A DNA stretch of 63,271 nt from a virus: IMG/VR virus record IMGVR_UViG_3300008459_009572, positions 1 through 63,271 of that record; one strand, 5' to 3'. The notes under the pieces were generated by a model. It was not told the DNA's origin, made no database searches, and worked only from the letters and a program-made list of their open reading frames with translations. Made by a program: the position numbers and the translations under genes. Positions 2,985 through 26,765 of the stretch are shown one piece after another. The first letter of the stretch is position 1; each line of letters opens with the position of its first letter.

Positions 2985-3866
2985 ATGCCTATAACATTAT
3001 CAAATAATAGCGGAACGGGTAACTTTTTACTGATAAACAATACTAATAGTGGTAACTTTGCTTTGAATTTTAGTAGTAGTGTAGTCCCTCCTGTTAGTGG
3101 ATCTGTTTTTTCTCTTATAAATACTATTATACCTTATTTAAGAGCAAACAGTGGTAGTTTAAGAAATCCAAATTTCTTTACTTATTTCTTAGATGGTGGT
3201 CCTTATTCTATAGCAGATGGTGGAAATGATATGTATGATATTGGTAACTTTACCGCTCCTTGGTTGCGTAATAATACTAGCTACTTAAATAGTACTTCTA
3301 TTCCTACCCCAACCCCAGCTTTAAACTATAGTTCTCAATCATCTACTTTAACTGACACTAACTTTTATTATGCTTCATTTGGATATAGTCAATCAACTGG
3401 TTCCTTCCCAGCAGGTTCACAAAATGGAAGATTTCATCCACTAACAATAATTGGAGCTAGAAGTGGATCAGGACCAATTGGATTCCAAAAAGCAGGTAAT
3501 ATTGGAGCAGATGGTGGTGGATCTTTAACTACAGCAAGTATATATTCTGGATCAGTAGTAAATGGATTTACAACTTATGCATTCTACCGTCAAACATTTG
3601 GACAGTCAGCAGATCCAGCTGTATGTGATGTTTATATACTACTAGGTCACCCTAATTGGGGATCTACATTTGGTACAGTAATATCTGGTTCAAATGCTAG
3701 TACAGATAATAATGGTGGTACTCTATATGCTACTGGGTCATCAAGTGAATTACTTGCAATAACTACTTTATTAAGTAGAACAGGATCAATAGCAATTACA
3801 CTTAATGAAGTTAAAACTGTAGTTGATAATTATACTACTTTAATAAAAACAGTACTTAATTATTAA
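2985..3866 (+). CDS. Gly/Ser/Asn-rich protein, probably an extended virion or surface protein
   Basis: 293 residues, dominated by Gly, Ser, Thr, Asn and aromatic residues and almost free of Lys and Glu until the C-terminus. The N-terminus has a repeated GNFLLINN/GNFALNF pattern. There is no signal peptide and no membrane helix. The composition is that of tail-fibre or decoration proteins. It sits directly upstream of the hydroxylase/glycosyltransferase genes and contains a PTPTP stretch near residue 108, so it is a candidate substrate. No family recognised. Confidence 0.5.
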   Translation: MPITLSNNSGTGNFLLINNTNSGNFALNFSSSVVPPVSGSVFSLINTIIPYLRANSGSLRNPNFFTYFLDGGPYSIADGGNDMYDIGNFTAPWLRNNTSYLNSTSIPTPTPALNYSSQSSTLTDTNFYYASFGYSQSTGSFPAGSQNGRFHPLTIIGARSGSGPIGFQKAGNIGADGGGSLTTASIYSGSVVNGFTTYAFYRQTFGQSADPAVCDVYILLGHPNWGSTFGTVISGSNASTDNNGGTLYATGSSSELLAITTLLSRTGSIAITLNEVKTVVDNYTTLIKTVLNY

Positions 3867-3926: not shown

Positions 3927-5171
3927 ATGCAAAGAAATTACATTGAAAATAATAAAGATTTAACAATTTTTACAATTGACAATTTTATCTCAGATGAAGA
4001 TTGTAATTATCTATGTGATCTTATTGAAAAAAATAACTATAGGTCTCTAGTAACTGGAGAAGGCAACCAATATAGTGTTGCTAATGATAATAGAACTAGT
4101 TCAACTTCTACTTTAGAAAATACTGATTCTATAGTTAAAAAAATAAACGAAAATATTGCTAATGAACTTCAAGTTCCTACTAAAAATGGAGAAACTCTTC
4201 AAGGCCAATTATATGAGATTGGACAAGAATTTAAACATCACCATGATTATTTTTCAGGAGATGGATATATAAATCATTGTTTAGCTAGCGGACAAAGAAC
4301 ATGGACCTGTATGGCTTATCTAAATGATGTTGAAGAAGGAGGTGAAACTGATTTTCCTCAAATTGAGGTAAAATTTAAACCCAAAAAAGGAATGGCTGTA
4401 TTTTGGAGTCATTTTGATAGTAATGGTAAAGAAAATCCCGCTTCTCTTCATGCTGGTACTCCTGTTATTAAAGGTAAAAAAATAATTATAACAAAGTGGT
4501 TTAGAAAAAATGAATGGATAGCTGGGGCAGATAGTCAAGCCGCTCAAAAACATCATGATAATTTAAAACAACAACAATTGGAAAGTAAAACATTTAAAAA
4601 CCCTTTAGAACTTCCTAAATTAACTCCATTAGGTTTTAAAGTAGTAAAAGTACCTGCAGACACATGGCAATTAATTCAGGAATCTTATGGATTACTAAAA
4701 AATGTAATAAGACAAGAAAATTGGGAAGGCATTAAAAATATAATTCATGACAAAGATGGTAATGCCCCCGTTGAAATAATGTCAATGGATAACTGCCCTC
4801 GTATACGTCAGATCATCCATAATGAACTTAAACCAATTCATGAAGAATTTTCAGGGGAAAATTTAGAACCTACTTACATTTACGGGATAAGATCATATAA
4901 AAGAGGAGCTATTTTAGAATCCCATAAAGACAGGATAGCAACTCATCATATATCTGCTATTATTATAGTTGATAAACAAGTAGATAGAGATTGGCCACTT
5001 GATATTCAAGATCATGAAGGTAATTGGCACAAGATATATGCTGAAGTCGGGGATATGATTTTATACGAGTCTGCAATCTGTGAACATGGAAGAAAAGAAC
5101 CACTAGAAGGTGAATATTTTAGAAATTTCTTTGTACATTACAAACTAAAAGACTGGGTTTATAACGGATGA
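3927..5171 (+). CDS. Tandem prolyl-4-hydroxylase-type 2-oxoglutarate/Fe(II) dioxygenase
   Basis: 414 residues with two dioxygenase domains. Domain 1 (about 10-195) is prolyl-4-hydroxylase-like: iron ligands H105-x-D107 and H175 in SLHAGTPV, then the 2-oxoglutarate-binding KGKK and a terminal KWFR. Domain 2 (about 230-414) has its own complete set: H333-K-D335, H387 in CEHGR and R399 in YFRNFF. Both therefore look active. The expected reaction is hydroxylation of proline or another residue on a protein. The gene overlaps the next by ATGA, and the two following genes look like hydroxyproline glycosyltransferases, which points to a shared pathway. Confidence 0.8.
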   Translation: MQRNYIENNKDLTIFTIDNFISDEDCNYLCDLIEKNNYRSLVTGEGNQYSVANDNRTSSTSTLENTDSIVKKINENIANELQVPTKNGETLQGQLYEIGQEFKHHHDYFSGDGYINHCLASGQRTWTCMAYLNDVEEGGETDFPQIEVKFKPKKGMAVFWSHFDSNGKENPASLHAGTPVIKGKKIIITKWFRKNEWIAGADSQAAQKHHDNLKQQQLESKTFKNPLELPKLTPLGFKVVKVPADTWQLIQESYGLLKNVIRQENWEGIKNIIHDKDGNAPVEIMSMDNCPRIRQIIHNELKPIHEEFSGENLEPTYIYGIRSYKRGAILESHKDRIATHHISAIIIVDKQVDRDWPLDIQDHEGNWHKIYAEVGDMILYESAICEHGRKEPLEGEYFRNFFVHYKLKDWVYNG

Positions 5172-5995
5172 TTAGTATACCTGTAGCAGTTGCGACTCCT
5201 CATTTTAAATGGCAGATCTCTCTATTTGAATACCAGCATTTTAAAGTGTATGGGGAAGAAGCAGTAAATAAAGCCATTATTCCAATTGTTAAAAGAAATT
5301 TTAAAAACCAAGAAAAAATTGAAAATGTAGATTGGGGTATAAAACTTCCATATCGTATGGTAGAATCTGTATTAGATTTATATAATTTAGATGAAGAAAT
5401 TTATATTCCTTCTAATTGTTATGCCGCTATCAAACAAATAATACATGAAATTAATGATGAAGAATGTATTGAAATACTTGATGCTGATATGCCCCATATA
5501 AGACCATATAGTGGATATATTCCAAGTGATGATGAAATATTAGCAGATGATAGATATGAATCATGGCATATGTTTATATCAAAAGAAGATGGTATTAATA
5601 GAAATATTATACAGAAATATTTAAAACATAATGATAATCAATATATGAACGGTGGTTCTAATATAATTTGTAAAGCATCTACTATGAAAAAAATAATAGA
5701 TGAAGTTATTGAGGTTGGATTACAAATTGGATTAGAACATAAAGGTACAAAACATTCTTGGTGGCAATCTATGTATGCAATTAATGTAGCCTGTCATAAT
5801 AATAGAATAAAAATGATTTCAAGAGATGGATGTTATTTTCCAAACATAAATGAAATAGATTTATCTAAACACCATGTAGTACATTATAGTTGTGATCCTA
5901 TTTTTAATAAATCACAATTTCCTTTAATTAATATAAAAGATTTTCCCAATAATGCTTTTTATAATGCTGTTAAAAGTTGGATTTACGAAAAATAA
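5168..5995 (+). CDS. Glycosyltransferase resembling hydroxyproline O-arabinosyltransferases
   Basis: 275 residues. The N-terminus ATPHFKWQISLFEYQHFK resembles the xxYxxWQxRVMYYxFKK block of plant and algal hydroxyproline arabinosyltransferases (HPAT) and related peptidyl-serine galactosyltransferases. It is followed at a plausible distance by IEILDADMPHIRPY, a DxD metal site at residues 105-107, and WWQSMYA further on. The gene overlaps the dioxygenase gene by 4 bases and the next glycosyltransferase gene by 1. The family assignment is by eye; a general GT-A glycosyltransferase is the safer reading. Confidence 0.5.
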   Translation: MISIPVAVATPHFKWQISLFEYQHFKVYGEEAVNKAIIPIVKRNFKNQEKIENVDWGIKLPYRMVESVLDLYNLDEEIYIPSNCYAAIKQIIHEINDEECIEILDADMPHIRPYSGYIPSDDEILADDRYESWHMFISKEDGINRNIIQKYLKHNDNQYMNGGSNIICKASTMKKIIDEVIEVGLQIGLEHKGTKHSWWQSMYAINVACHNNRIKMISRDGCYFPNINEIDLSKHHVVHYSCDPIFNKSQFPLINIKDFPNNAFYNAVKSWIYEK

Positions 5996-6861
5996 TGGAA
6001 ACAATATTAGTACAAATAGCATGTAGATTAGATAAAGAAGTTAAAAAAACAATAATTGATTTATACAAAAAAGCAGATAATCCTGATGCAATTGAGATTA
6101 TTGTAATAAATCAAGATTTTGAAAATGATATGTGGAAACAGTCTGATTTTCCTGATAAGGTAACCCTTATTAATATTGAAGAAAGTAAAACTAGAAATTT
6201 AGCACACACTCGTTCCTTTTGTAAATTATATATAAAGCCATCTCATAAATATTTTATGAATATTGATGCTCATAGTAGATTTGATGAGCATTGGGATACT
6301 ACACTTATAACAGCATACGAAAATTATGGGAAAAAATGTATGATAAGTGTTTATCCAAAAGGATATCAAGTAAAACCAAATGGGGAAGATTTTTTAATCT
6401 TAGATAATTCATTTGCTATAAATTATTTTAATACGGTACCCACTGGTATTTTTAGAATTGAAGCTATACCTGTACCTGTTGTAACAAAAGAAAAATACTA
6501 TAGAAGTTTAGCTGCTGGGGGATTTCATTTTACAATAATTGATTGGGTATGGGAAGTTGGATATGATCCGTATTGTGAATGGAATGAACATGAACTAAGT
6601 ATTTCACTTAGAACTTATTGCCATGGGTATGATGTAATTAGTTATCATGTTAGACCTATATATCATTTATATGACCATACTCAACGAAAATCATTAAAAT
6701 CACCTACATTTAATTATGGTATTAACTCATCTGAAAGAATGAAATCATTGATAAAAAAAGAAAATAAAACTTTTTTAGAAAATGTGTATCCACTAGGTGA
6801 CAAAAGAACTTTAGAAGACTTTGAAAAAGAATATAATTTTGAAATAAGCAAACATATATGA
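5995..6861 (+). CDS. Glycosyltransferase of the GlcNAc (Skp1 hydroxyproline GlcNAc-transferase) type
   Basis: 288 residues. The order of motifs matches the GlcNAc glycosyltransferase family (PF11397), whose known member in Dictyostelium adds GlcNAc to hydroxyproline of Skp1: ILVQIACR at the N-terminus, TRNLAHTRSFCKLYI, FMNIDAHSRFDEHWD with a D-x-H metal motif at residues 91-93, then SVYPKGYQV and AAGGFHF. The start at 5995 (TAATG, shared with the previous stop) is preferred over an upstream TTG at 5977. It forms the third gene of the apparent hydroxylation/glycosylation unit. Confidence 0.72.
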   Translation: METILVQIACRLDKEVKKTIIDLYKKADNPDAIEIIVINQDFENDMWKQSDFPDKVTLINIEESKTRNLAHTRSFCKLYIKPSHKYFMNIDAHSRFDEHWDTTLITAYENYGKKCMISVYPKGYQVKPNGEDFLILDNSFAINYFNTVPTGIFRIEAIPVPVVTKEKYYRSLAAGGFHFTIIDWVWEVGYDPYCEWNEHELSISLRTYCHGYDVISYHVRPIYHLYDHTQRKSLKSPTFNYGINSSERMKSLIKKENKTFLENVYPLGDKRTLEDFEKEYNFEISKHI

Positions 6862-6865
6862 TGCT

Positions 6866-8056
6866 ATGAAAAATATTAATAAACCTATTCAATTATTTAA
6901 AGTACACATGAATTCTAATGCTAAAATAGAAGTAGGAAAAGTACTAGATAGTGGATATATAGGACAAGGTTCTAAAGTAGAAGAATTTGAAAAAAAACTA
7001 AACGAATATTTTAATTCAGACAGAATAGTAACAGTAAATTCAGGAACATCAGGATTACACTTGGCTTTACATTTACTAAAAAAACCTTCAAGCATAGTAT
7101 CTGCTGATGGTTACAGTAAATATGAAAAAAATTGGCCAGGTATACAAGAAAACGATGAAGTTTTAGCAACAGCACTAACATGTACTGCCTCAAATTGGCC
7201 TATACTAGCAAATGGGTTAAAAATTAAATGGGTTGATATTGATGAGAAAACTCTTAATATGGATTTAGATGATTTAGAAAGAAAAATAACATCAAAAACA
7301 AAAGCAATTATAGTAGTACATTGGGGAGGATATCCTTTAGATTTAGATAGGCTTAAAAAAATCCAAGATAAAGCATTTGAATTATACGGATTCAAACCAG
7401 CAATTATTGAGGATGGAGCCCACTCATTTGGTTCTGAATATAAAGGAAAAAAACTAGGTAATCATGGAAATATAGTCATGTATTCTTTACAAGCTATTAA
7501 ACATATAACCTCTATCGATGGTGGATTATTAGTACTACCCTATCAGGATCTTTATAATAGAGCAAAATTAATTCGTTGGTATGGGATTGATAGAAATAGT
7601 AATAAAAAAGATTTTCGTTGTGAGGCAGATATTACTGAATGGGGATTTAAGTTTCATATGAATGATGTTTGTGCAACAGTTGGAATTGAAAATTTAAAAG
7701 ATGCAGATGCAATTATATCTAAACATAGAGATAATGCAAAATTTTATGATGAAAATTTAAAAGGAATCAATAATATTACTTTATTAGAAAGACATAAAGA
7801 TCACAATTCTGCTTTTTGGATTTATAGTTTATTAGTTGAAAATAGAGACGGATTTTATAAACACATGAAAGACTGTGGAATTATAGTATCACAAGTACAT
7901 GAAAGAAATGATAAACACACTGCTGTGAAGGAATTTAGAACTCCTCTTCCTACATTAGATAAAATACTACCAAAAGTAGTTTCCATACCAGTTGGATGGT
8001 GGGTCACAGAAGAAGAAAGACAGTACATTGTTGATTGTATTAAAAGTGGTTGGTAA
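6866..8056 (+). CDS. DegT/DnrJ/EryC1/StrS sugar aminotransferase (PLP)
   Basis: 396 residues. It shows the family order: IGQGSKVEEFEKKL, VNSGTSGLHLALHL, the PLP-contacting IEDGAHSFGS, and the Schiff-base Lys K212 in SLQAIKHITSIDGG. Such enzymes aminate keto-deoxy sugars. GDP-4-keto-6-deoxymannose made by Gmd (35440) would be a possible substrate, giving perosamine, but the actual substrate is not evident. The next gene is a GNAT acetyltransferase 2 bases downstream, a common pairing for N-acylated amino sugars. Confidence 0.88.
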   Translation: MKNINKPIQLFKVHMNSNAKIEVGKVLDSGYIGQGSKVEEFEKKLNEYFNSDRIVTVNSGTSGLHLALHLLKKPSSIVSADGYSKYEKNWPGIQENDEVLATALTCTASNWPILANGLKIKWVDIDEKTLNMDLDDLERKITSKTKAIIVVHWGGYPLDLDRLKKIQDKAFELYGFKPAIIEDGAHSFGSEYKGKKLGNHGNIVMYSLQAIKHITSIDGGLLVLPYQDLYNRAKLIRWYGIDRNSNKKDFRCEADITEWGFKFHMNDVCATVGIENLKDADAIISKHRDNAKFYDENLKGINNITLLERHKDHNSAFWIYSLLVENRDGFYKHMKDCGIIVSQVHERNDKHTAVKEFRTPLPTLDKILPKVVSIPVGWWVTEEERQYIVDCIKSGW

Positions 8057-8058
8057 TA

Positions 8059-8556
8059 ATGAATTTAATTTTTACGAAGATAACAAAAGACGATTTGGTA
8101 TTTGTAAATAAAATTCGTAATGAATATGCTGTTGAATACTTACATAATAGTCAAACCTACTCATTAGAAGAAACACATGATTGGTTTAATAAGGCTAACC
8201 CTGATTTTTGGATTATATTAGATTCAGATTTGAAAATAAAAGTTGGATATTTTAGATTATCAAATTATTCAAAAGAAAATAAAAACATATATGTTGGGGC
8301 TGATATAGCACCTGAATATAAAGGGAAAGGATATGGTAGGAATGCTTACAAAATATTTATACCTTATTTGTTTGAACAATACGATTTACATAAAATAACA
8401 TTAGAAGTTCTTTCTACAAACATAATAGCTAAAAATCTATATGAAAGTTTAGGATTTACTTATGAAGGTAAAAAAAGAGAAGAAATTTATAAAAATGGAA
8501 AGTGGATTGATTCAATTATAATGTCACTACTAAAGTCAGAATACAAAAGTAAATAA
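8059..8556 (+). CDS. GNAT family N-acetyltransferase
   Basis: 165 residues of the RimJ/RimL-like type used in amino-sugar acylation. The core is visible: GYFRLSNY, IYVGADIAPEYKGKGYG with the acetyl-CoA pyrophosphate loop, then NLYESLGFTYEGKKREEIYKNGKW. It probably acetylates the product of the upstream aminotransferase. The ATG at 8059 is chosen over the TTG at 8050, which overlaps the upstream gene. Confidence 0.85.
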   Translation: MNLIFTKITKDDLVFVNKIRNEYAVEYLHNSQTYSLEETHDWFNKANPDFWIILDSDLKIKVGYFRLSNYSKENKNIYVGADIAPEYKGKGYGRNAYKIFIPYLFEQYDLHKITLEVLSTNIIAKNLYESLGFTYEGKKREEIYKNGKWIDSIIMSLLKSEYKSK

Positions 8557-12284: not shown

Positions 12285-12331
12285 ATTATTAATTAACCCG
12301 CTTACCTTCGGGAAGCACAAAAGTGAACATT

Positions 12332-12745
12332 ATGACACAATTAGCACATTGGGGCATTGATCCCTTCGACATTGTTTGGAAAAACTTTTTAAATTCCAAC
12401 TCAACATTTAACACATTCCAAGAAAAAATCAACTATCCAGTTGATATTTATGAAACAGAAACAGGTTTACGATTTGAACTTGCAGTAGTAGGACTTGACA
12501 AATCAGATATAGATATTTTAGTAGAGTCCGATGTATTAAGAATTACCCACGATAAACAAATAACAGAAGAAACAGAAAAGTCTTACCTACAAAGAGGTAT
12601 TGCTCGTCGTTCTTTTGATTTAGCATGGAAAATAGCTTCTAAATTTAATTTATCTAAATTAGATGCTAGATTAGATAAAGGCTTGCTTATTATAGATATT
12701 CCTTATGCAGAGGAAAAAGCACCAAAAAAAGTTACGATTAAATAA
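12332..12745 (+). CDS. Small heat-shock protein (Hsp20, alpha-crystallin domain)
   Basis: 137 residues. The alpha-crystallin core spans about residues 33-130: YPVDIYETETGLRFELAVVGLDKSDIDI, RITHDKQ, YLQRGIARRSFDLAWKI and LDKGLLIIDIPYAEE. It binds unfolding proteins and hands them to chaperonins, which are encoded directly downstream. The ATG at 12332 is preferred over a GTG at 12323. The gene is bracketed by the inverted-repeat elements at 12260 and 12756. A weak hairpin at 12300-12316 lies in its leader. Confidence 0.9.
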   Translation: MTQLAHWGIDPFDIVWKNFLNSNSTFNTFQEKINYPVDIYETETGLRFELAVVGLDKSDIDILVESDVLRITHDKQITEETEKSYLQRGIARRSFDLAWKIASKFNLSKLDARLDKGLLIIDIPYAEEKAPKKVTIK

Positions 12746-12755
12746 GTTTTGAAAA

Positions 12756-12779
12756 TCGAAGACCTGTCATTATCTTCAA
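12756..12779. repeat. Inverted-repeat element upstream of groES (copy 2)
   Basis: Reverse-complement partner of the element at 12260-12284. It has the dyad GAAGA-N10-TCTTC and ends 23 bases before the GroES start. Copies thus lie in front of both hsp20 and groES, as expected for a shared operator; pairing of the two copies in RNA around the hsp20 message is also possible. Confidence 0.65.
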
Positions 12780-12802
12780 TTTTTAAATTTTAAAATTATA
12801 AT

Positions 12803-13093
12803 ATGAAGATAAAACCACTGCACAACCACGTTGTGATTAAACAACAAGACGAAACTGAAACAATGTATGGAAACATTGTAGTACCTGATATGGGTAAAGA
12901 AAAACCACTTATGGGAGAAGTAGTAGCTGTAGGACCTGGATTTTATTCGGTTACAGGAACCTTTATTGAAAATAAAATTCAAGTAGGTGAAACAGTAGTA
13001 TTTCCTGCCTTTGGTGGAACTAAAATGACTATTGATGGAGAAGAATATGTTGTAATGAAAGAATCTGATTTGTTGGCAATTTTAGAAAAATAA
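12803..13093 (+). CDS. groES: Co-chaperonin GroES
   Basis: 96 residues, typical for GroES. The N-terminus KIKPLHNHVVIKQ, the mobile-loop region TMYGNIVVPD, GEVVAVGPG, the GETVVFPAFGGTKM block and the C-terminal EEYVVMKESDLLAIL all fit. It caps the GroEL ring encoded 3 bases downstream. It is closer to bacterial GroES than to T4 gp31. Confidence 0.94.
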   Translation: MKIKPLHNHVVIKQQDETETMYGNIVVPDMGKEKPLMGEVVAVGPGFYSVTGTFIENKIQVGETVVFPAFGGTKMTIDGEEYVVMKESDLLAILEK

Positions 13094-13096
13094 ACT

Positions 13097-14707
13097 ATGA
13101 GTAAAATAATAAAATTTGATCGCGACGCGAAAGAAAAATTACAAGTCGGTATTAAAAAAGTACACGATGCTGTAACAGTAACAATGGGTCCTTTTGGACG
13201 CAATGTACTAATTGAAAAAGAACATGGGCAAGTAGCATCAACCAAGGATGGTGTTACAGTTGCTAAAACTATCACATTAGAAGATCCAATTGAAAATATG
13301 GCTGCAACCGTAATTAAACAAGCAGCTCAAAAAACAGTTGATCAAGCAGGTGATGGTACAACAACCTCTACTTTGTTAGCATATAGTATTGCTAATCAAG
13401 CACTTGAGTTAACCTCTAAACCATCAGTTAATGTTACTCAAGTAAAAAAAGGTATTGAAGAAGCAGTTAAAAATGTAGTTGCTGAATTAAAATCAATGTC
13501 TGTAGATATTACTGATGAAAAGCAAATTAAACAAATTGCTACTCTATCAGCTAATGGTGATGAGGAAATTGGAGAATTAGTTGCTACAGCAATTGATAAA
13601 GTAGGAAGAGACGGAATTGTAACAGTAGAAGAATCACGTTCAGGTGAAACTGAACTTGAGGTAGTAGAAGGTCTTCAATTTGATCGTGGTTATAAATCAC
13701 CTTATATGGTGACAGATAACAACACAATGCAAGCTATTTTAAATGATGCCTTTGTATTATTGTATGATGGTCGTTTAAGTGCAGTAAAGGATTTACTTCC
13801 TGTACTTGAGCGTGTATCCTCTGATAATAAAGCATTATTAGTTGTAGCTGAAGATATTGATGGTGAGGCACTATCTACTCTTATTGTAAATAAAATGAGA
13901 GGTATCTTAAAAGTAGCTGCTGTTAAAGCACCTGATTTTGGTGATCGTAGAACATTAATTTTAGAAGACATTGCTACAGTTACAGGTGGTACTGTAATTT
14001 CACCTACTAAAGGAATGAAATTAGAACGCTTTAATATGGAGTGGTTAGGTAAAGCTAGAACAATTACTGTAGGTAAAGATACAACTACAATTGTAGATGG
14101 TAAAGGCAGTGAAGATAAAATTAATGATCGTATTTTAGAGCTCAAATCTCAGATTGAACAAGCAACTTCACCATATGAAATTGAACGTTTACAAGACCGT
14201 TTAGCTAAGATTGTTGGTGGTGTAGCTATTATTAATGTAGGTGGGGGAACTGAGGTTGAGATGAAAGAAAAGAAAGATCGCATTGATGATGCTTTACAAG
14301 CAACAAAAGCAGCACTTGAAGAAGGTATTCTACCAGGTGCTGGTATGGCTTTATTTAGAGCTAAAAATGCAATTAATGATAGAGATAATAGTGATACTGG
14401 ATTAGGAGGACAAATTGTATTTAAAGCTTGTTCAACCCCACTTAATAAAATCTTAACCAATGCTGGCGAAGATTATCATGAATGGTCTTCTATTCTAAAG
14501 GATAAAAATGCAGTTCCTGATATTAAAGGAGATAGAACAGTAGATGCTTTTAAATCAGGTATTATTGATCCAACTAAAGTAGTACGTTGTGCACTTGAAA
14601 ATGCGGCTCATGCTGCTGTTACACTTCTAATGACTGAATGTGTAATACATGATAAACCAACTGAAAAAAAGAAAGATGAGGTTGATTTGTCACAATTTGG
14701 AATGTAA
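13097..14707 (+). CDS. groEL: Chaperonin GroEL
   Basis: 536 residues, full length. The ATP site is intact (VTVTMGPFGRNVLIEK and QAGDGTTTSTLLA), as are the apical-domain block EVVEGLQFDRGYKSPYMVTD and the equatorial DALQATKAALEEGILPGAGMAL. The C-terminus ends DLSQFGM and lacks the Gly-Gly-Met tail of host GroEL. A second chaperonin can fold phage proteins that the host system handles poorly. It forms an operon with groES. Confidence 0.97.
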   Translation: MSKIIKFDRDAKEKLQVGIKKVHDAVTVTMGPFGRNVLIEKEHGQVASTKDGVTVAKTITLEDPIENMAATVIKQAAQKTVDQAGDGTTTSTLLAYSIANQALELTSKPSVNVTQVKKGIEEAVKNVVAELKSMSVDITDEKQIKQIATLSANGDEEIGELVATAIDKVGRDGIVTVEESRSGETELEVVEGLQFDRGYKSPYMVTDNNTMQAILNDAFVLLYDGRLSAVKDLLPVLERVSSDNKALLVVAEDIDGEALSTLIVNKMRGILKVAAVKAPDFGDRRTLILEDIATVTGGTVISPTKGMKLERFNMEWLGKARTITVGKDTTTIVDGKGSEDKINDRILELKSQIEQATSPYEIERLQDRLAKIVGGVAIINVGGGTEVEMKEKKDRIDDALQATKAALEEGILPGAGMALFRAKNAINDRDNSDTGLGGQIVFKACSTPLNKILTNAGEDYHEWSSILKDKNAVPDIKGDRTVDAFKSGIIDPTKVVRCALENAAHAAVTLLMTECVIHDKPTEKKKDEVDLSQFGM

Positions 14708-17855: not shown

Positions 17856-19316
17856 ATGAAAGAAGGTTATATTCCGCAAGCTCAACGCAAAAAGATTCTT
17901 TTACTTTGTGACGATATCCGAATGACAAGTGGTATTTCTACTATGGCTAGAGAAATTGTTATCGGTACTGCCCATCATTATAATTGGGTAAATGTAGGGG
18001 GCGCTATTAGCCATCCTGATAAAGGCAAAAGATTTGATCTAAGTGCAGATACAGGAAACAATGCTGGTATTGATGATGCTAGTGTATTTCTTTATCCTAC
18101 TGATGGGTATGGTTCTCCTGAACTGATTCGACAACTTATTCAAATAGAAACCCCAGATGCAATTATGTTTTTTACAGATCCAAGATATTGGGTTTGGTTG
18201 TTTCAAATAGAACATGAGATTAGGAAAAAAATACCAATGATTTATCTTAATATTTGGGATGATTTGCCTTATCCAATGTATAACAAATCATTTTATGAAT
18301 CATGTGATACATTATTTGCTATTTCTAAACAAACAGAAAACATTAATAGAGTAGTATTAGGACCAGAAATAGCAGCTGAAAAAGTAATTAAATATGTTCC
18401 ACATGGAATTAATGAAAAATTCTTTTTTCCTATTAAACCAGAGCATCCTGAATATTTAACATTACAAGAATATAAAAAGCATCTTTATGGTGAAAAAGAG
18501 TATGATTTTAATTTATTATACAATGCTAGAAATATTCGCCGTAAATCGGTTCCTGATTTAATGTTGGCTTGGAAAATATTCATTGATACACTACCAGTAG
18601 AAAAAGCTAAAAAATGTGTATTTACACTTCATACTCAACCAATTGATGAAAATGGAACTGATTTGCTTGCTGTAAAGGATATGTTATTTGGAAGAAATCC
18701 TCAATATAACATCGTATTTTCTCAAGCAAGAAATCCATCAAACATCATGAATCTACTCTATAACACAGCAGATGTTGTAGCTTTAATTAGTAGTAACGAA
18801 GGATGGGGATTATCTCTTACAGAAGCAATGATTTGTGGAAAACCAATTATAGCTACAGTAACAGGTGGTATGCAAGATCAAATGCGTTTTGAAGATGAAA
18901 ATGGTAATTGGATTAAATTTATAGAAGAATTTGGTTCAAATCATAAAGGAAAATATAAAAAGCATGGAAAATGGGCTTTTCCCGTATTTCCATCAAATCA
19001 AAGTATTGTAGGTTCTGTTCCAACACCTTATATATTTGATGATAGAGCCCAACCAGAACATGTAGCTGAACAAATTGGAAAAATATATGATATTAAGACA
19101 AATCAACCTGAATACTATGCTGAAATTAGTCAAGCCGCTCATGATTGGGTCCATTCAGATGAAGCAATGATGACAGCTAGAATGATGTCTAAAAACATAA
19201 TTGATGGTATTGATGAAACTTTTAATAAGTGGGAACCAAGACATGCTTTTGAAATGATTAAAGTAGAACCACTTGAACAACCAAAACATTTTGTAAAACA
19301 CGTTATCGCTAAATAA
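17856..19316 (+). CDS. GT4-type glycosyltransferase
   Basis: 486 residues with a GT-B fold. The C-terminal donor-binding region is clear: ALISSNEGWGLSLTEAMICG, KPIIATVTGGMQDQM (E-x7-E). The N-terminal half has RKKILLLCDDIRMTSGISTMAREI, typical of GT4 acceptor domains. It opens the 20-kb glycan cluster and is followed 1 base later by another GT4 gene. Confidence 0.85.
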   Translation: MKEGYIPQAQRKKILLLCDDIRMTSGISTMAREIVIGTAHHYNWVNVGGAISHPDKGKRFDLSADTGNNAGIDDASVFLYPTDGYGSPELIRQLIQIETPDAIMFFTDPRYWVWLFQIEHEIRKKIPMIYLNIWDDLPYPMYNKSFYESCDTLFAISKQTENINRVVLGPEIAAEKVIKYVPHGINEKFFFPIKPEHPEYLTLQEYKKHLYGEKEYDFNLLYNARNIRRKSVPDLMLAWKIFIDTLPVEKAKKCVFTLHTQPIDENGTDLLAVKDMLFGRNPQYNIVFSQARNPSNIMNLLYNTADVVALISSNEGWGLSLTEAMICGKPIIATVTGGMQDQMRFEDENGNWIKFIEEFGSNHKGKYKKHGKWAFPVFPSNQSIVGSVPTPYIFDDRAQPEHVAEQIGKIYDIKTNQPEYYAEISQAAHDWVHSDEAMMTARMMSKNIIDGIDETFNKWEPRHAFEMIKVEPLEQPKHFVKHVIAK

Positions 19317-19317
19317 T

Positions 19318-20616
19318 ATGAAACCTTTAGTTTTTATAAGTTGCCCTATTGATACATTTTCTGGTTATGGTGCTAGGTCTAGAGATGTTGCTTTGTCTAT
19401 TATTAAATCTGGAAAGTATGAGGTAAAAATACTACCTCAAAGATGGGGAGCTACCCCCTTTGGATTTCTACAGCCAGATAATCCTGATCATAAATTAATG
19501 ATAGAATGTATATGGCCTAACCCCCAACTTCCTAAACAACCAGACTGCTGGATTCAGATTACTGTACCAAATGAATTCCAACCTATAGGAAAATTTAACA
19601 TTGGTATTACAGCAGGTATTGAAACTACATTATGTGCTTCTTCTTGGATTGAAGGAATTAATAGAATGAATTTAACACTTGTATCTTCAAATCATGCTAA
19701 AACTGTATTTGAAAATAGTAAATATGAAAAGCGAGATCAAAATACAAATCAGATATTAGAAAATATAGAAGTAAAATCACCTATAGAAGTATTATTTGAA
19801 GGTGTAAATAATGATATTTACAAAAAATTAGATGCTTTTAATGGAGAAGTAAATGATACTTTAGAAGATTTAGTAAAAGAAGATTTTAATTTCTTGTTTG
19901 TAGGTCATTGGTTACAAGGAGAAATTGGACAAGATAGAAAAGATGTTGGAATGCTTATAAAAACTTTTCTTGAAACATTTAAAGACAAAAAACAAAAACC
20001 AGGACTTATTCTTAAAGTATCATGTGGTAACTATTCTATAATGGATAGAGATGAAATATTAGATAGAATTAGACGAATTGAAGAAAGTATAGAAGGCGAT
20101 CTACCTAGTATTTACTTACTTCATGGTGAATTAAGTGATGATGAAATAAATGAGCTATACAATCATTCTAAAGTAAAAGCACACGTATCATTTACCAAAG
20201 GAGAAGGATTTGGAAGACCATTATTAGAAGCCTCCATTAGCCAAAAACCAGTAATTGCTTCAAATTATAGTGGGCATTTAGATTTTCTTGATTCTGAACT
20301 ATCAATTTTACTCCCAGGAGAAATAAAACAAATTCACCCCTCAGCAGCCGTACAAGATATGCTCATTCCAGAATCTGGATGGTTTACTGTTGATTATAAA
20401 AAAGCTTCTGAGATATTTGAAGATGTTTATAAAAATTATAAAAAGTATGTTGATAGAGCAAAGAAACAATCTTACCGTTCACGTACTGAATTTAGTTTAG
20501 AAAAAATGTCTGAAAAATTAGTAGGAATACTAGATGAAAAGATACCTAAACCCGTAGAACTTAAACTTCCTCAATTGAAAAAAATTGAATTACCTAAACT
20601 TAAAAAAGTAGACTAA
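19318..20616 (+). CDS. GT4-type glycosyltransferase
   Basis: 432 residues. The acceptor domain starts with SCPIDTFSGYGARSRDVALS, and the donor site is SFTKGEGFGRPLLEASISQKPVIAS. Its tail is a Lys/Leu/Pro repeat (ELKLPQLKKIELPKLKKVD), unusual for the family. It pairs with the upstream GT4 gene. Confidence 0.85.
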   Translation: MKPLVFISCPIDTFSGYGARSRDVALSIIKSGKYEVKILPQRWGATPFGFLQPDNPDHKLMIECIWPNPQLPKQPDCWIQITVPNEFQPIGKFNIGITAGIETTLCASSWIEGINRMNLTLVSSNHAKTVFENSKYEKRDQNTNQILENIEVKSPIEVLFEGVNNDIYKKLDAFNGEVNDTLEDLVKEDFNFLFVGHWLQGEIGQDRKDVGMLIKTFLETFKDKKQKPGLILKVSCGNYSIMDRDEILDRIRRIEESIEGDLPSIYLLHGELSDDEINELYNHSKVKAHVSFTKGEGFGRPLLEASISQKPVIASNYSGHLDFLDSELSILLPGEIKQIHPSAAVQDMLIPESGWFTVDYKKASEIFEDVYKNYKKYVDRAKKQSYRSRTEFSLEKMSEKLVGILDEKIPKPVELKLPQLKKIELPKLKKVD

Positions 20617-21011
20617 TGCAAGAATCACTTATAATATGTTCTAGGTGTGGGGGTAATGCTTGTCATGAAGCATCTAACGGTCAACTTACTATTTGGAGTT
20701 GTTTTGGGTGTGGATTTACAACTAATTCTACTTTAACAGATGATAAATTAGAAGAAGTAGAAGTAGTAATTCCTCAATTATATAAAGATCTTAAATTTAA
20801 AGATGAAAATGGATTATACTGGTATCCAAATAGTGTAATGTTAGAAGATAGATCAATGGTGTTTGCTGATGGTAAATCTATTGATGAATGGAAGTGGGCA
20901 GGAGTTAAATCTGATGGTGAAAAAGCAGATATGACAACAATAAAACATTTTGAAGAAAAAGACTTTATGGAAGCCCTTGATTATATAGGCTTCTTTGAAA
21001 AACAAAAATAA
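20616..21011 (+). CDS. Zinc-ribbon protein of unknown function
   Basis: 131 residues. Two Cys pairs (CSRCGGNAC and CFGCGF) form an N-terminal zinc ribbon, followed by an acidic domain containing LYWYPNSVMLEDRSMVFADG. The start shares one base with the previous stop. It resembles small phage proteins of unknown role embedded in glycan clusters. Confidence 0.6.
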   Translation: MQESLIICSRCGGNACHEASNGQLTIWSCFGCGFTTNSTLTDDKLEEVEVVIPQLYKDLKFKDENGLYWYPNSVMLEDRSMVFADGKSIDEWKWAGVKSDGEKADMTTIKHFEEKDFMEALDYIGFFEKQK

Positions 21012-21015
21012 CGTT

Positions 21016-21636
21016 ATGTTAAGAATTAGTTATGCTATTACTGCTTGGAATGAACACCAAGAATTGGATCGCTTACTTGAAATGCTAACAAACAACATTC
21101 GTCCTGAAGATGAAATAGTAGTTCAATTAGATAAAACAGCGACTGCAGAAGTTAGATCTGTTTGTTTTGATTTTGGTAGACCTAATCTTAGGGTAGTTGA
21201 ATTTCCTTTAAATAATGATTTTGCTACTTTTAAAAATAATCTAAAAAAAGAATGCCTTAAAGAATTTATATTTCAGATTGATGCTGACGAATATCCTCAT
21301 CCTCATTTATTAGCTTCATTACCTTCAATTTTAGATTATAATTACAATATAGATGTATTTTTAGTTCCCAGAATAAACACTGTAGAAGGATTAACTGAAC
21401 AACATATTCAACAGTGGGGATGGAATGTAAATGATAAAGGATGGGTTAACTTTCCTGATTACCAATGGCGTATTTGGAAAAATAGTTCTAAAATTAAATG
21501 GATAAATAAAGTACATGAGCGTTTAGATGGATTTAATGAATATTCAGCCTTTCCACAAATGGAAGAATATTGTTTATTTCATCCTAAAGATATTAAAAGA
21601 CAAGAAAAACAAAACCAATTTTATAATACATTATGA
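21016..21636 (+). CDS. GT2-like glycosyltransferase
   Basis: 206 residues. It has a GT-A start (ISYAITAWNEHQELDRLLEML), a metal site in FIFQIDADEYP (DxD) and an acceptor region with FPDYQWRIWKNSSKIKWINKVHERL. It is shorter than most GT2 enzymes. The ATG at 21016 is preferred over a TTG at 20995. Confidence 0.82.
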   Translation: MLRISYAITAWNEHQELDRLLEMLTNNIRPEDEIVVQLDKTATAEVRSVCFDFGRPNLRVVEFPLNNDFATFKNNLKKECLKEFIFQIDADEYPHPHLLASLPSILDYNYNIDVFLVPRINTVEGLTEQHIQQWGWNVNDKGWVNFPDYQWRIWKNSSKIKWINKVHERLDGFNEYSAFPQMEEYCLFHPKDIKRQEKQNQFYNTL

Positions 21637-22037
21637 GTGACAGAAAATATCTACCAACATTAAGTGAATTAATAGATAGACTATCAATTGTACAGCTAAA
21701 AGAAGTATTCATCCCAGAACATAAAAATGAATATGCTAAAGAAATAGCTGACATAGTTCATGATATTCAATTATATTTAAAAGAAAGTAAAGAACCAATT
21801 ACGGCTGATACAATTAGAGCAATTGTTGTTCTTTCACAAATGAATTTACATATTTGGCATAATGAATCTAATTATCGTAAGGGTATTAAAGATGGAAATA
21901 ATTTAGAATTAACTCATGGATTAAATGGTATTCGCAATGTAGCTAAAAATAAAATCCAGGAAATTATGGGTGGTAGAAAAGATTATAAAATTGACTGCTT
22001 AGCAGCTGAATTTAAAGATTGGGATATATCATGGTAA
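21633..22037 (+). CDS. DUF4254-like protein
   Basis: 134 residues, mainly helical. LSELIDRLSIVQLKEVF near the N-terminus and VVLSQMNLHIWHNESNYRKG near residue 70 fit DUF4254, a family often found in glycan loci. Function unknown. It overlaps both neighbours (ATGA upstream; 7 bases with the next gene). Confidence 0.5.
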   Translation: MSDRKYLPTLSELIDRLSIVQLKEVFIPEHKNEYAKEIADIVHDIQLYLKESKEPITADTIRAIVVLSQMNLHIWHNESNYRKGIKDGNNLELTHGLNGIRNVAKNKIQEIMGGRKDYKIDCLAAEFKDWDISW

Positions 22038-22435
22038 AAAAAGTATGGGTAAATGGCGCTTTTGATATCCTTCATATAGGACATCTTAGACTACTTGAAT
22101 ATGCTGCTTTATTTGGCAGTGTTCGAGTTGGTATTGATACTGATAATCGCATTAAAGAAAAAAAAGGAGCTGATCGTCCATACAATACTTTAGAAGATAG
22201 AGTAGAATTTCTATATGGGATTAAATATGTAACAGATGTTGTTACATTTGGATCAAATGAGGAGCTAGTTGAAAGTATTAGAGAATATGACCCTGATTTA
22301 ATGGTTATAGGAGATGATTACAATTATCATACTATTATTGGAATTGAATATATTCCTCAAGTTAAATTCTTTGAGAAAATACCTGGTAAATCAACAACTA
22401 AAATTTTAAATTATGGAAAAACCAATAGTTTGTGA
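22031..22435 (+). CDS. HldE/TagD-type nucleotidyltransferase
   Basis: 134 residues with the cytidylyltransferase-like motifs VNGAFDILHIGHLRLLEYA (HxGH), RVEFLYGI and the late GKSTTKIL. This is the size of the HldE adenylyltransferase domain, which makes ADP-heptose, or of glycerol-3-phosphate cytidylyltransferase. A separate HldE-like kinase lies at 36447, which favours the heptose reading. The ATG at 22031 is preferred over a TTG at 22019. Confidence 0.8.
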   Translation: MVKKVWVNGAFDILHIGHLRLLEYAALFGSVRVGIDTDNRIKEKKGADRPYNTLEDRVEFLYGIKYVTDVVTFGSNEELVESIREYDPDLMVIGDDYNYHTIIGIEYIPQVKFFEKIPGKSTTKILNYGKTNSL

Positions 22436-22784
22436 GGGTTGTAAAGTACCTAAAGGTTGGGGTGAAGAATTAATTATTGAAAATAATGATAAATACTGTG
22501 GCAAGCTCCTTATATTTAAAGCAGGTTGTAAATTCAGTATGCATTATCATATGATTAAAGATGAAACATGGTATGTTGATAAAGGAGAATTCATATATAG
22601 ATGGATTGACACTGAAACAGCTGAAATACATGAAGAATACCTTAAACCAGGAAACGTAGTAAGACAAAGACCAGGCCAACCTCATCAGTTGGAAGCTAAA
22701 ACAGAAGGTATTATATTTGAAGTATCAACAACTCACTTTGATTCTGACTCATATCGTGTTTGGAAAGGTGATTCACAAAAATAA
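22413..22784 (+). CDS. Cupin-type sugar isomerase-like protein
   Basis: 123 residues, one cupin barrel. The metal site is visible as HYH (SMHYHMIKDETWYV), a Glu, and a later His in RPGQPHQLEA. Related proteins include D-lyxose isomerase-like and mannose-6-phosphate isomerase-like cupins. It overlaps the nucleotidyltransferase gene by 23 bases. Confidence 0.7.
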   Translation: MEKPIVCEGCKVPKGWGEELIIENNDKYCGKLLIFKAGCKFSMHYHMIKDETWYVDKGEFIYRWIDTETAEIHEEYLKPGNVVRQRPGQPHQLEAKTEGIIFEVSTTHFDSDSYRVWKGDSQK

Positions 22785-22788
22785 AAAT

Positions 22789-23718
22789 ATGAAAAAAGTT
22801 TTAATTATAGGAGGTAATGGATATGTAGGTAGTAGACTATATAAAGATTACTCTACAGAATATAAAGTTACAATAGTAGATGGATGTTGGTTTGATAAAC
22901 CACTAGTTCCAACAATAGAAAGAGATATTACTGAATTAACAGTTGATTTCTTATCTTCGTTTGATGTTGTTATTTTATTAGCTGCCCATTCAAGTGTTAA
23001 AATGTGTGAAGGGCCTTTATTAAGTGCCTATGACAATAATATTAGAAATTTCGTTCAGCTAGCATCTAAGTTAAAACCGCATCAGAAATTTATATATGCT
23101 AGCTCATCTAGTGTTTATGGTAATGCTGGTGAATTAGTAGTGGATGAAACCTATAACGGGTTTGTACCTCATAATCATTATGATATTACAAAACATGTTA
23201 TTGACCTATATGCTCCTAAATTCGATACTCAGTATTATGGTTTAAGATTTGGTACTGTAAATGGTTATTCTCCTATTGTTAGAAATGATGTTATGATTAA
23301 CTCAATGGTTTATAATGCTGTTAAAAACGGAGAAATAAAACTATACATTAAAGATATTCTTAGACCAATTTTAGGTATAAGTGATTTAAGTCGTGCTATA
23401 AAAGCTATTATTGATGTAGAAGGTGATCATAGAGGAATTTATAATTTAGCTTCATTCAATAGCACAGCTGAGGAGATAGCTTATGGTGTTAGCAAAGTAG
23501 TAGGTGTTAAAGTAACTGAGTACGAAACAGATCCTAATAATATTGTTAATTCAAAATTACAAACTAAAAGTTATAATTTTTCTATTGATTGTACTAAATT
23601 TAAAAATACATTTGGATTTGAATTTAAAGAAACAGTAGAGAGTATTACAAAAGGATTAGTAGACAATTTTGATAATATAATTTTCACATCAAGAAATCAA
23701 TTTAAGGAATATGAATAA
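22789..23718 (+). CDS. NAD-dependent sugar epimerase/dehydratase (SDR)
   Basis: 309 residues. It has the Rossmann start KKVLIIGGNGYVGSRLY, a catalytic Ser region YASSSSVYG and Y-x-x-x-K in NHYDITKH, then LRFGTVNGYSP. It acts on a nucleotide sugar; specificity is unknown. The ATG at 22789 gives the standard N-terminus; an earlier frame start at 22717 lies inside the cupin gene. Confidence 0.88.
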   Translation: MKKVLIIGGNGYVGSRLYKDYSTEYKVTIVDGCWFDKPLVPTIERDITELTVDFLSSFDVVILLAAHSSVKMCEGPLLSAYDNNIRNFVQLASKLKPHQKFIYASSSSVYGNAGELVVDETYNGFVPHNHYDITKHVIDLYAPKFDTQYYGLRFGTVNGYSPIVRNDVMINSMVYNAVKNGEIKLYIKDILRPILGISDLSRAIKAIIDVEGDHRGIYNLASFNSTAEEIAYGVSKVVGVKVTEYETDPNNIVNSKLQTKSYNFSIDCTKFKNTFGFEFKETVESITKGLVDNFDNIIFTSRNQFKEYE

Positions 23719-24940
23719 TGAATTTCAAATATCACACATTGAAAATAAAAAATGTTTTTGTTGTGGTAATAATAATTTAAAAACAGTATTGGATTTAGGT
23801 AATCAACCCTTAGCAAATGATTATCATAATAATTTAGTGTTACAAGAAGAATATCCGTTAAAATTAAATTTATGTGATAAATGTTTCCATTTACAACTAA
23901 GTCATACAGTTAATCCTGATTTAATGTTTAAACATTATCTTTATGTAAGTGGTACAACACAAACCTTAAGGGATTATTTTGATGTATTTGCTAAAAAAAC
24001 ACTAGAATATAATCCTAAAGCTAAAAATATATTAGACATTGCTTCTAATGACGGAACTCAACTTGATTCTTATAAAAAACTAGGACTAAATACCTATGGA
24101 ATAGACCCAGCGGAGAATTTGTATGGTGATGCTGTAACTAAAGGTCATAATATAGTATGTGATTATTTCAATATTAATACTATTGATAAATTTGGTGATA
24201 CTAAGTTTGATATCATTACTGCTCAAAATGTATTTGCCCATAACAAGTATACTGTTGATTTTCTTTTATCCTGTAATGAATTAATGACCGATCAATCAGT
24301 ATTATTTATTCAAACATCACAAGCAAATATGGTATTAAATAACGAATTTGATACTATTTACCATGAGCATTTATCTTTCTTTAATACTAAATCAATGAAA
24401 ACGTTAGTTGAAAGATGTGGTTTAGTATTAAGTGACGTATTTAAAACAGACATTCATGGTACTAGTTATGTGTTTGTAATTACTAAAAAAGATTTAGGAT
24501 TAAAAGGAACACAAGAAATGCTTGATTTTGAAGAAAGTAAAGGTTTGTATGATGTTTTAACTTATCCTGAATATGCTTTAAAATGTTATAAGGCAACTTA
24601 CGATTTAAAAAATAAATTAGAACAACTTAAAAAAGAAGGATATACTTTAGTTGGATATGGAGCTGCTGCTAAAGGTAATACATTACTTAATTTTGGAAAA
24701 ATTAAATTAGATATTATTATAGATGATAATCCTTTAAAACAAAATCTATTCACTCCTGGAATGAATATCCCAATTTATAGTTCTGATTATATATCAAACA
24801 TGCTTAAGGATAAAGTAGTTTTCATACCTTTAGCTTGGAATTTCTATACTGAAATTAAATCACGTATTAAAGCAAAAAGAGATAATCCAAATAATTTATT
24901 TATTAAATATTTCCCAACATTAGAAATAAATGAAGGTTAA
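23711..24940 (+). CDS. Sugar C-methyltransferase (TylCIII/NovU-like)
   Basis: 409 residues with the three-part layout of sugar C-methyltransferases: an N-terminal zinc site (CFCCGN ... CDKC), a SAM-binding middle (ILDIASNDGTQLDSYKKLG, YGIDPAENL) with HEHLSFF, and a C-terminal Rossmann-like part with VGYGAAAKGNTLLNF. The family adds a methyl to a keto-sugar carbon, making branched deoxy sugars. This fits the deoxy-sugar genes at 32-36 kb. Confidence 0.88.
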   Translation: MNNEFQISHIENKKCFCCGNNNLKTVLDLGNQPLANDYHNNLVLQEEYPLKLNLCDKCFHLQLSHTVNPDLMFKHYLYVSGTTQTLRDYFDVFAKKTLEYNPKAKNILDIASNDGTQLDSYKKLGLNTYGIDPAENLYGDAVTKGHNIVCDYFNINTIDKFGDTKFDIITAQNVFAHNKYTVDFLLSCNELMTDQSVLFIQTSQANMVLNNEFDTIYHEHLSFFNTKSMKTLVERCGLVLSDVFKTDIHGTSYVFVITKKDLGLKGTQEMLDFEESKGLYDVLTYPEYALKCYKATYDLKNKLEQLKKEGYTLVGYGAAAKGNTLLNFGKIKLDIIIDDNPLKQNLFTPGMNIPIYSSDYISNMLKDKVVFIPLAWNFYTEIKSRIKAKRDNPNNLFIKYFPTLEINEG

Positions 24941-25847
24941 AATATCATATCATATAATGCCATATGAAATAGACTATGCTTTATTATCATATACTCAATT
25001 AAAAAAATCTAGATATCACATTCCTGATAATATAGATATTGAAATTGATACGGTAATGAATTGTTCTAATTATTTAATTGATTGGGACAAAACTATTTTA
25101 CCTAAACAGTTCTTCATCCAAAAATTTAATGATTTAAGTATATTACTAAAAGATTATACTGTTAACTCTAAAATATATGAAGGAGATGAATGTTACGGTC
25201 TTCTAGATATCCAACGAGAATCCTACTGTGGAGCTGATTATTACATTAATATCACCCCAGATATGTACTTTAGTGAACATCTATTAGCATTAATGCTTGA
25301 ATCAACTAAAGTAATTAAAAATGAATATTATGTAGTTACTCCTGAAATTCATAAAATGTGGGATTATACTTGGGATGAAATTACTAATCAAAGGTATATG
25401 GATGTTCCTTATGAAAAATGGAATGATACAGATGTATTTGATATTAGACATAATATGAAAATGGATAACGATGAAGTAAGATTAGAGCCAACAACAAGAA
25501 GTAAATGGGCTTGGTGGTTAGATTTATATAACAGAGCATTTTATGAAGATTTTGCCCCTGTACAAGATGATTGGTATGGATACGGACCTTGGGATTGGTG
25601 GTCGTTAATGTTAACAGAATATGCTAAAAATCAAGGTGCTGATTTTCAAGAGTATGTTTTAAGAGGACAAACTATATTTGAATATCCTATTGGTTCTTTA
25701 AAAGGTAAGGGATTTGTTTCCTATCATAAAGACTTTATGCATATGAGAGGAAATGCCCCTCAACAAAGACAACGATTTGAAGCAAACATGCAATTATATC
25801 TAGAAAGAGGAATCAAACATTTAAAACAAAAAGGAATTATAAAATGA
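24930..25847 (+). CDS. Putative GT-A glycosyltransferase
   Basis: 305 residues. YYINITPDMYFSEHLL resembles a metal-site/acceptor region and WDYTWDEITNQ is distinctive; Trp and Tyr are frequent. No family is securely recognised. Position between a sugar methyltransferase and another methyltransferase, with overlaps at both ends, suggests a glycan function. Confidence 0.5.
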   Translation: MKVKISYHIMPYEIDYALLSYTQLKKSRYHIPDNIDIEIDTVMNCSNYLIDWDKTILPKQFFIQKFNDLSILLKDYTVNSKIYEGDECYGLLDIQRESYCGADYYINITPDMYFSEHLLALMLESTKVIKNEYYVVTPEIHKMWDYTWDEITNQRYMDVPYEKWNDTDVFDIRHNMKMDNDEVRLEPTTRSKWAWWLDLYNRAFYEDFAPVQDDWYGYGPWDWWSLMLTEYAKNQGADFQEYVLRGQTIFEYPIGSLKGKGFVSYHKDFMHMRGNAPQQRQRFEANMQLYLERGIKHLKQKGIIK

Positions 25848-26761
25848 AAATAACAGTACAAGATATTGAACAAGTAGTTGGATTTTCAATTAGTAATAGT
25901 TGTAAAACATTAATTGATGAATTTGATCTTACTTATAGAGAATTAACAAAACAAGAACGTGATGATGTTATACTTAACATTATTAATACTTTAAATGATG
26001 ATATTGAATATGTAGGTAAGCATAGATTAGAAAAGTGGGAAAAGGGATGGTATGAGAATTTAGAATTATTAAAGCAAGAGAAGAAAGTAAATAGTTTAGT
26101 TCCTAAATATTTTGGTAAATATGATGTTGCTCGTTGGAAGGGTGATTTTATTAAATGTGAAACTGAATATTTTGATTACAAACTTCATATTATACTAGTT
26201 GATGCTATATTACATCAATATGTAGGTAGTAATTATTCTAATTTATATGAATTTGGTTGTGGTCCCGCTTATCATTTATTACGTTTTGGAAATTTTAACT
26301 CTAATATTAACTTAATAGGTCTAGATTGGGCCGAAGCCTCTCAGAATATTATTAAAGAAATAAACAAATTAAAAATTAATAATAAAATAACAGGATATAA
26401 TTTTGATTATTTTAACCCAAATTACAACATAGATATAGCAGAAAATTCAGCTATATTTACTTGTGCTTCATTAGAACAAATTGGGGAAAATTATAAAGAA
26501 TTCGTAGATTATCTAATCTCAAAACAACCTGATCTTTGTATTCATTTTGAACCTTCTTCAGAGTTGTTAAATGAAAATAGTTTGGTAGATAAACTTTCTA
26601 TATTATATTTCAATAAAAGAAAATATTTGAAAGGATATTTAACTTATTTAAGACAACTAGAACAAGAAAATAAAATTGAAATTATAAATACTCAACGATT
26701 ACAAGGTGGTTCTTATTTTATAGAAGGATATCCTGTAATTGTTTGGAAAATAAAAAAATAA
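25844..26761 (+). CDS. Class I SAM-dependent methyltransferase
   Basis: 305 residues. The SAM motif LYEFGCGPAYHLLRFG near residue 130 is followed by NLIGLDWAEASQNII and FTCASLEQIGENY. The N-terminal 110 residues are helical and not recognised. The substrate is probably a sugar or glycolipid, judged only by the neighbours. Confidence 0.75.
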   Translation: MKITVQDIEQVVGFSISNSCKTLIDEFDLTYRELTKQERDDVILNIINTLNDDIEYVGKHRLEKWEKGWYENLELLKQEKKVNSLVPKYFGKYDVARWKGDFIKCETEYFDYKLHIILVDAILHQYVGSNYSNLYEFGCGPAYHLLRFGNFNSNINLIGLDWAEASQNIIKEINKLKINNKITGYNFDYFNPNYNIDIAENSAIFTCASLEQIGENYKEFVDYLISKQPDLCIHFEPSSELLNENSLVDKLSILYFNKRKYLKGYLTYLRQLEQENKIEIINTQRLQGGSYFIEGYPVIVWKIKK

Positions 26762-26765
26762 ACAC

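Follow-up and report, generated by a model that had tools for sequence, protein, structure and literature searches.

The window analysed here is a 63-kb linear fragment (63,271 nucleotides, an IMG/VR-type virus record) whose DNA polymerase B is kin to enzymes of T4-like and cyanobacterial phages. At 3927-8556 it carries a cassette with a core of five head-to-tail genes, all on the plus strand, which opens with a two-domain 2-oxoglutarate (2OG)-Fe(II) dioxygenase and continues with two glycosyltransferases, one HPAT-like and one of the GT60 type (Table 1). A first-pass annotation made from the letters alone had described the three leading genes as a hydroxyproline glycosylation cassette, and its observation as a whole is confirmed: the list of open reading frames (ORFs) contains the three overlapping genes at the positions it named, and the preceding gene does encode a Gly/Ser-rich protein with a PTPTP stretch. 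The hydroxylase and HPAT-like ORFs overlap by 4 nt (ATGA) and the HPAT-like and GT60-like ORFs by 1 nt (TAATG), an arrangement that would allow translational coupling of all three.

The dioxygenase is divided into domain 1 (approximately residues 11-196) and domain 2 (approximately 263-409), the latter a second 2OG oxygenase fold. Domain 1 matches the Pfam family 2OG-FeII_Oxy_3 (PF13640, 7.7e-17), and among PDB sequences it matches the prolyl 4-hydroxylases (P4Hs) of Bacillus anthracis (5iax/3itq, 1.8e-40) and Chlamydomonas (Cr-P4H-1, 2jig/3gze, 1.6e-30). The AlphaFold model used for comparison has a mean pLDDT of 78, and its top Foldseek match is 3gze, Cr-P4H in complex with (Ser-Pro)5 (E 9.4e-17, TMt 0.79). 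Searches with hydroxylase queries gave 204 candidate stretches coding for a relative, and 80 of them were retained; together with the loci found earlier these make 83 loci with both domains, falling into 32 clusters at 85% identity that are 40-83% identical to one another. The iron-ligand sets, which the first-pass annotation had read as complete in both domains, are invariant in all 32 clusters: H105, D107 and H175 in domain 1, accompanied by the equally invariant 2OG lysine K185 (at +10), and H333-x-D335...H387 in domain 2. The latter domain also looks catalytic, because its HxD...H set is universally kept and R399 is present in 29/32 clusters. Window residues R56, S58, E89, R124 and W191, likewise invariant in 32/32, correspond to Cr-P4H R93, S95, E127, R161 and W243, and we take R93, S95 and W243 to line the substrate pocket. 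E127 and R161 place the substrate in Cr-P4H (PMC5684110); the Cr-P4H numbering was mapped by sequence alignment to a construct that begins at V29 (PMC9676403). Sequence, predicted structure and pocket residues thus clearly identify domain 1 as a putative P4H.

The HPAT-like and GT60-like enzymes are the cassette's TRANSFERASES. Profile searches place neither of them in an unrelated polymer family. The GT60-like protein scores 100.6 bits (1.6e-28) against the Pfam GlcNAc family PF11397, for which the curated cut-off is 21 bits; its assignment to GT60/PF11397, and with it the Skp1-type GlcNAc-transferase family proposed at first pass, is firm at the level of the profile. Its D-A-H motif (D91-H93) is invariant in its alignment. 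The relation of the other transferase to HPAT holds for the family, with the window copy itself under threshold: it reaches 22.9 bits (6.5e-5) against PF23452, whose curated cut-off is 23.9 bits. Among the relatives scored one by one, five pass (L006, 30.7 bits; L345, 31.6; L360, 33.3; L378, 31.2; L333, 47.0 bits, 3e-12). Because these relatives pass, the best with 47 bits, the window copy is treated as a divergent member of the superfamily and not as an established arabinosyltransferase. When the HPAT-like family is widened to 17 sequences, 10 match PF23452 at E <=1 and all share the DxD (D105, D107), Y-E-x-W-H, G-G, W-W-x-x-M and H-Y-S-x-D. The chain opens directly at the catalytic region, MISIPVAVATPHFKW, and reading of the sequence, with no predictor run, revealed no Golgi type II anchor. 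Searches of PDB by hidden Markov model with the HPAT and GT60 alignments gave no meaningful relative, a GT60 query found no match in the genome contig collection, and HPAT queries found none in 50,697 cultured-phage records. Foldseek with a model of the HPAT-like protein returned only weak GT-A matches (GTA/GTB blood-group transferases, best E 0.74), which were not used.

Comparative genomics extends the evidence far outside the window, linking the hydroxylase to transferase genes and to proline-rich ones. HPAT queries lead to 8 viral loci, and in all 8 the two-domain hydroxylase lies directly upstream; the gene order is not due to chance, since it recurs in every HPAT-positive locus so found. 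Across the hydroxylase clusters, a glycosyltransferase of the HPAT, O-FucT or GT32 type, in some cases with GT60, occupies position +1 in 27/32, lies within +2 in 30/32 and within +3 in all 32; the pairing is found in dozens of uncultured phages. The gene at -1 is proline-rich in 22/32 clusters, compared with 5/143 distant genes of the same loci (at -3 or farther upstream, or at +5 or farther downstream; p 7.5e-16). Tracts of the form (P[ST])4 occur in 13/32 representative loci and in 1 of 116 control loci picked by a Gly-Ser pattern (p 2.8e-9). The reverse test started from loci selected by in-frame (P[STA])5 coding and nothing else; it finds a hydroxylase or GT60 in 6/73 loci and in none of 163 controls (p 7.6e-4). 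A measure of proline density (>=7 P in 20 aa) was discarded because antisense (Gly-Ser)n frames code for Pro, and 70/116 of the Gly-Ser controls scored; the (P[ST])4 criterion and the comparison between positions of the same loci took its place.

Proteins encoded at -1 frequently contain (Pro-Ser/Thr)n tracts, and their genes are situated among those for the tail or virion. In L002 the gene for a (PSPT)n protein comes after that of an S74 tail fibre, and the (PT)n protein of the crAss-like L006 has a crAss muzzle C-terminal domain (PF25729, 2.4e-18). In G001 and G002 the repeats vary in their synonymous codons, a pattern suggestive of selection at the protein level and not of recent expansion of a DNA repeat.

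The transferase modules themselves are fused in several related phages. L380 encodes a single chain of 634 aa with GT60 and then HPAT domains, located between the genes for a (PT)n protein and the tail sheath; the fusion is independent evidence that both enzymes work on one substrate. In L304/L305, L310 and L313, an HPAT-like stretch, O-FucT and GT60 are joined, and the L313 chain (L313:7482-11102, 1206 aa) resembles an assembly line, running from a weak HPAT domain through O-FucT to two GT60 domains. In L308:1481-4042 and L352:2517-5138 the gene next downstream of the two-domain hydroxylase fuses O-FucT to a carbamoyltransferase, a hint that sugars may be carbamoylated.

Taken together, these observations make it probable that the cassette is a protein-modification pathway in which prolines of a proline-rich virion protein are hydroxylated and the tract is then glycosylated. 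A virion (tail-region) protein produced during the same infection and containing a (Pro-Ser/Thr)-type stretch would have prolines of this stretch hydroxylated by domain 1, after which the HPAT-like and GT60-like enzymes would add sugar to the hydroxylated tract. The HPAT-like enzyme would most likely transfer sugar to hydroxyproline itself, the GT60-like enzyme to hydroxyproline or an adjacent Thr/Ser. Completing the cassette, DegT and GNAT (6866-8556) probably provide a UDP-linked N-acetylated amino-sugar donor, as their nearest curated models, both scoring below cut-off, are PseC and PseH, and in L006 both genes come directly after HPAT (50% and 30% identity to those of the window); arabinose is an unlikely donor sugar. 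The resulting tail segment would resemble extensin or mucin in being stiff, protease-resistant and sugar-coated. For the wider proposition our judgement is evenly balanced: with a two-domain hydroxylase as the shared element, the HPAT, O-FucT, GT32 and GT60 modules that follow it may be exchanged and fused, such that crAss-like, T4-like and other phages would run a hydroxyproline-O-glycosylation homologous to that of plants and protists and make extensin-like tail stalks.

Several observations weigh against a hydroxylation-glycosylation pathway of this kind. The position of Cr-P4H Tyr140, a strongly conserved P4H residue that touches the substrate proline and is a contact rather than an iron or 2OG ligand (PMC9676403), is occupied by Phe (F102) in 32/32 phage enzymes. 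The HPAT-like copy of the window lies 1 bit under the Pfam cut-off, and the AlphaFold model of its fold, from six sequences, is poor (pLDDT 49). The -1 gene is not proline-rich in 10/32 clusters, among them the closest relatives of the window's hydroxylase. No (PT)n coding occurs in the records of those closest relatives or in G003-G005, all of which may be fragments (G003 and G005 span 90-122 kb), and (PT)n as a constant companion of the cassette was rejected on G003-G005. Conversely, G006, G009, G010 and Xanthomonas phage XacN1 combine GT60 and (PT)n without a detected hydroxylase. In the window itself, no (PT)n protein is present within the 63-kb fragment. The 2985 protein, proposed at first pass as a possible substrate, does lie at -1, where 22/32 related loci have a proline-rich gene. 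Its own sequence is not rich in proline, its PTPTP is single, no family in Pfam or PHROGs matches it, and the phage records searched yielded no homologue. It is thus a weakly supported candidate, and the phage's own substrate may lie outside the fragment.

The acceptor residue is the point at which an alternative fares best. The idea that a proline is hydroxylated and then glycosylated stands in so far as profiles and comparative genomics join a prolyl hydroxylase and two named O-glycosyltransferase families in one pathway, with hydroxyproline itself as a putative acceptor. GT60 takes in both protist Ser/Thr mucin-type enzymes and the Skp1 enzyme that acts on hydroxyproline (PMC6939170, PMC8724618), GT95 (HPAT) is kin to GT96, a Ser galactosyltransferase (PMC8012813), and there are the phages with GT60 and (PT)n in which no hydroxylase was detected. 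Prolines could then be hydroxylated while the sugar is placed on Ser/Thr of the same tracts, with GT60 acting as a mucin-type polypeptide alpha-GlcNAc-transferase and the HPAT-like protein, as a relative of SGT1/GT96, transferring to Ser, giving a virion glycoprotein that is not hydroxyproline-linked. In the 8 loci from HPAT queries the HPAT-like gene never occurs without the hydroxylase, as expected if it needs the hydroxylase's product, although a requirement for hydroxyproline beside the acceptor Ser would account equally well for the linkage. We regard this alternative, with both transferases acting on Ser/Thr, as unlikely.

A host or cytoplasmic target, modified as EF-Tu is by the prolyl hydroxylase of B. 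anthracis or as Skp1 is in amoebae, so that the sugar step regulates it, is improbable. The nearest bacterial P4H structures found by Foldseek include an EF-Tu-modifying enzyme (5v7y), and several lineages have the cassette surrounded by genes of nucleotide metabolism instead of tail genes; the proline-rich tail-region gene upstream in 22/32 clusters nevertheless points to a phage substrate. Still less credible is that the transferases build or alter a host surface polysaccharide or lipopolysaccharide next to an unrelated oxygenase, for although this phage has a large sugar-nucleotide island, both transferases match families of protein, not polymer, glycosylation and the hydroxylase has a transferase partner in 32/32 clusters. 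Least credible of all is hypermodification of DNA, as known from cassettes of 2OG dioxygenases and glycosyltransferases in other phages, for which the TAGT family is named: an oxidation of the base of TET/JBP type followed by its glycosylation has in its favour a weak TAGT match of the fused L313 protein (22.2 bits, below cut-off), but domain 1 is P4H-like by sequence, predicted structure and pocket, the window enzyme has no match to Tet_JBP (PF12851), the transferases come from protein-glycosylation families and the linkage to proline-rich genes would be left unexplained.

Table 1. Cassette genes, the candidate substrate gene and members of the sugar-nucleotide island in the 63-kb window.
Feature	Position	Strand	Evidence or setting
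Gly/Ser-rich 293-aa protein with SIPTPTPAL, candidate substrate at -1	2985..3866	+	ORF list; position statistics
Tandem two-domain 2OG-Fe(II) dioxygenase, 414 aa	3927..5171	+	Pfam, PHROGs, PDB sequences, AlphaFold, Foldseek, residue conservation
HPAT-like (PF23452, GT95-type) glycosyltransferase, 275 aa, invariant DxD	5168..5995	+	Pfam; homologue alignment
PF11397/GT60-type polypeptide alpha-GlcNAc-transferase-like, 288 aa from ATG, D-x-H	5995..6861	+	Pfam; alignment
DegT-type sugar aminotransferase	6866..8056	+	Pfam PF01041 1.5e-71; closest curated model PseC, below cut-off
GNAT acetyltransferase	8056..8556	+	Pfam GNAT 2.8e-16; closest curated model PseH, below cut-off
GT2-type transferase	20995		Window island
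Second DegT	32357		Window island
GDP-fucose-synthase-like, two genes	33513, 34481		Window island
GDP-mannose-dehydratase-like	35440		Window island
Heptose-kinase-like	36447		Window island

The sugar-nucleotide and glycosyltransferase island extends over 17856-37175 of the window. Within it, two adjacent genes at 30650-32382 resemble, by reading, the halves of one transketolase-type thiamine-diphosphate enzyme. Reading also recognises chaperone genes at 12323-14707, one Hsp20-like (12323) and one encoding a full GroEL-like chaperonin (13097). In L008, a QueC-like gene near the cassette (L008:10903-11760, recognised by reading) suggests that this lineage has a metabolism of queuosine or of deazaguanine DNA, and L008:11930-15506 holds five tandem paralogues that open with MIKLIDLLENKILVPRRS (one with LLDILEN) and contain repeats like ITSLPQGLTVGG. 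In XacN1 (AP018399.1, locus L384), a GT60-like gene is followed by a carbamoyltransferase and the genome has many matches to (PT)n-type patterns; a PF13640 hydroxylase was not found there, and this phage possibly represents a Thr/Ser-glycosylating version.

Glycosylation linked to hydroxyproline is taught as a feature of eukaryotes, namely plants, algae and some protists. The open-licence literature, with subscription papers and preprints outside the search, yielded no report of it in phages; the enzyme families and phage virion glycosylation are each known, and their combination in bacterial viruses is apparently undescribed. If the proposed pathway is real, hydroxyproline glycosylation reaches bacterial viruses and the origin of the eukaryotic families comes into question. 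It would also give a function to the common, unexplained 2OG oxygenases and proline-rich tail proteins of phages, and offer compact soluble enzymes for producing hydroxyproline glycoproteins in bacteria.

Among viruses, the cultured Synechococcus phage S-SCSM1 (MK867354.2, 229 kb; laboratory host WH7803) provides a split-gene parallel. Its gene order is 2OG oxygenase, O-FucT, 2OG oxygenase, carbamoyltransferase and GDP-fucose genes, and the downstream oxygenase is homologous to domain 2; unlike the window, it has O-FucT in place of HPAT and GT60, and its genes are annotated singly and not as a pathway. Its annotated virion proteins include two with proline-rich tracts, and the genome as a whole has thirteen PF13640 2OG-oxygenase matches, nine of them above the family cut-off. 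Mycobacteriophages likewise use phage transferases to decorate virion proteins, in their case of the capsid and tail tube, whereas other proteins are sugared there and the parts of the report consulted mention no prolyl hydroxylation (PMC12619734). The vCPH of Paramecium bursaria Chlorella virus (5C5T) is a viral P4H of the same fold by Foldseek, but that virus infects a eukaryote and its enzyme is single-domain. The Skp1 pathway of Dictyostelium and Toxoplasma (PhyA and the GT60 enzyme Gnt1) likewise combines a cytoplasmic prolyl hydroxylase with GT60. There, however, one site on a folded protein is modified, whereas the phage cassette apparently serves repetitive proline-rich tracts and has an added HPAT-type enzyme, and its GT60 may act on Thr/Ser. 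The plant and green-algal pathway, in which P4H is followed by HPAT/GT95, which transfers beta-L-Araf to hydroxyproline, or by GT96 on extensins and (Ser-Pro)n, shows the same order of enzyme families, the same Cr-P4H-type hydroxylase and, in the phages, (Pro-Ser/Thr)n tracts as apparent substrates. In contrast to it, the phage enzymes are cytoplasmic, no membrane anchor being seen, the hydroxylase has two domains, the homology to HPAT is remote, the apparent substrates belong to the tail region and the donor is unlikely to be arabinose.

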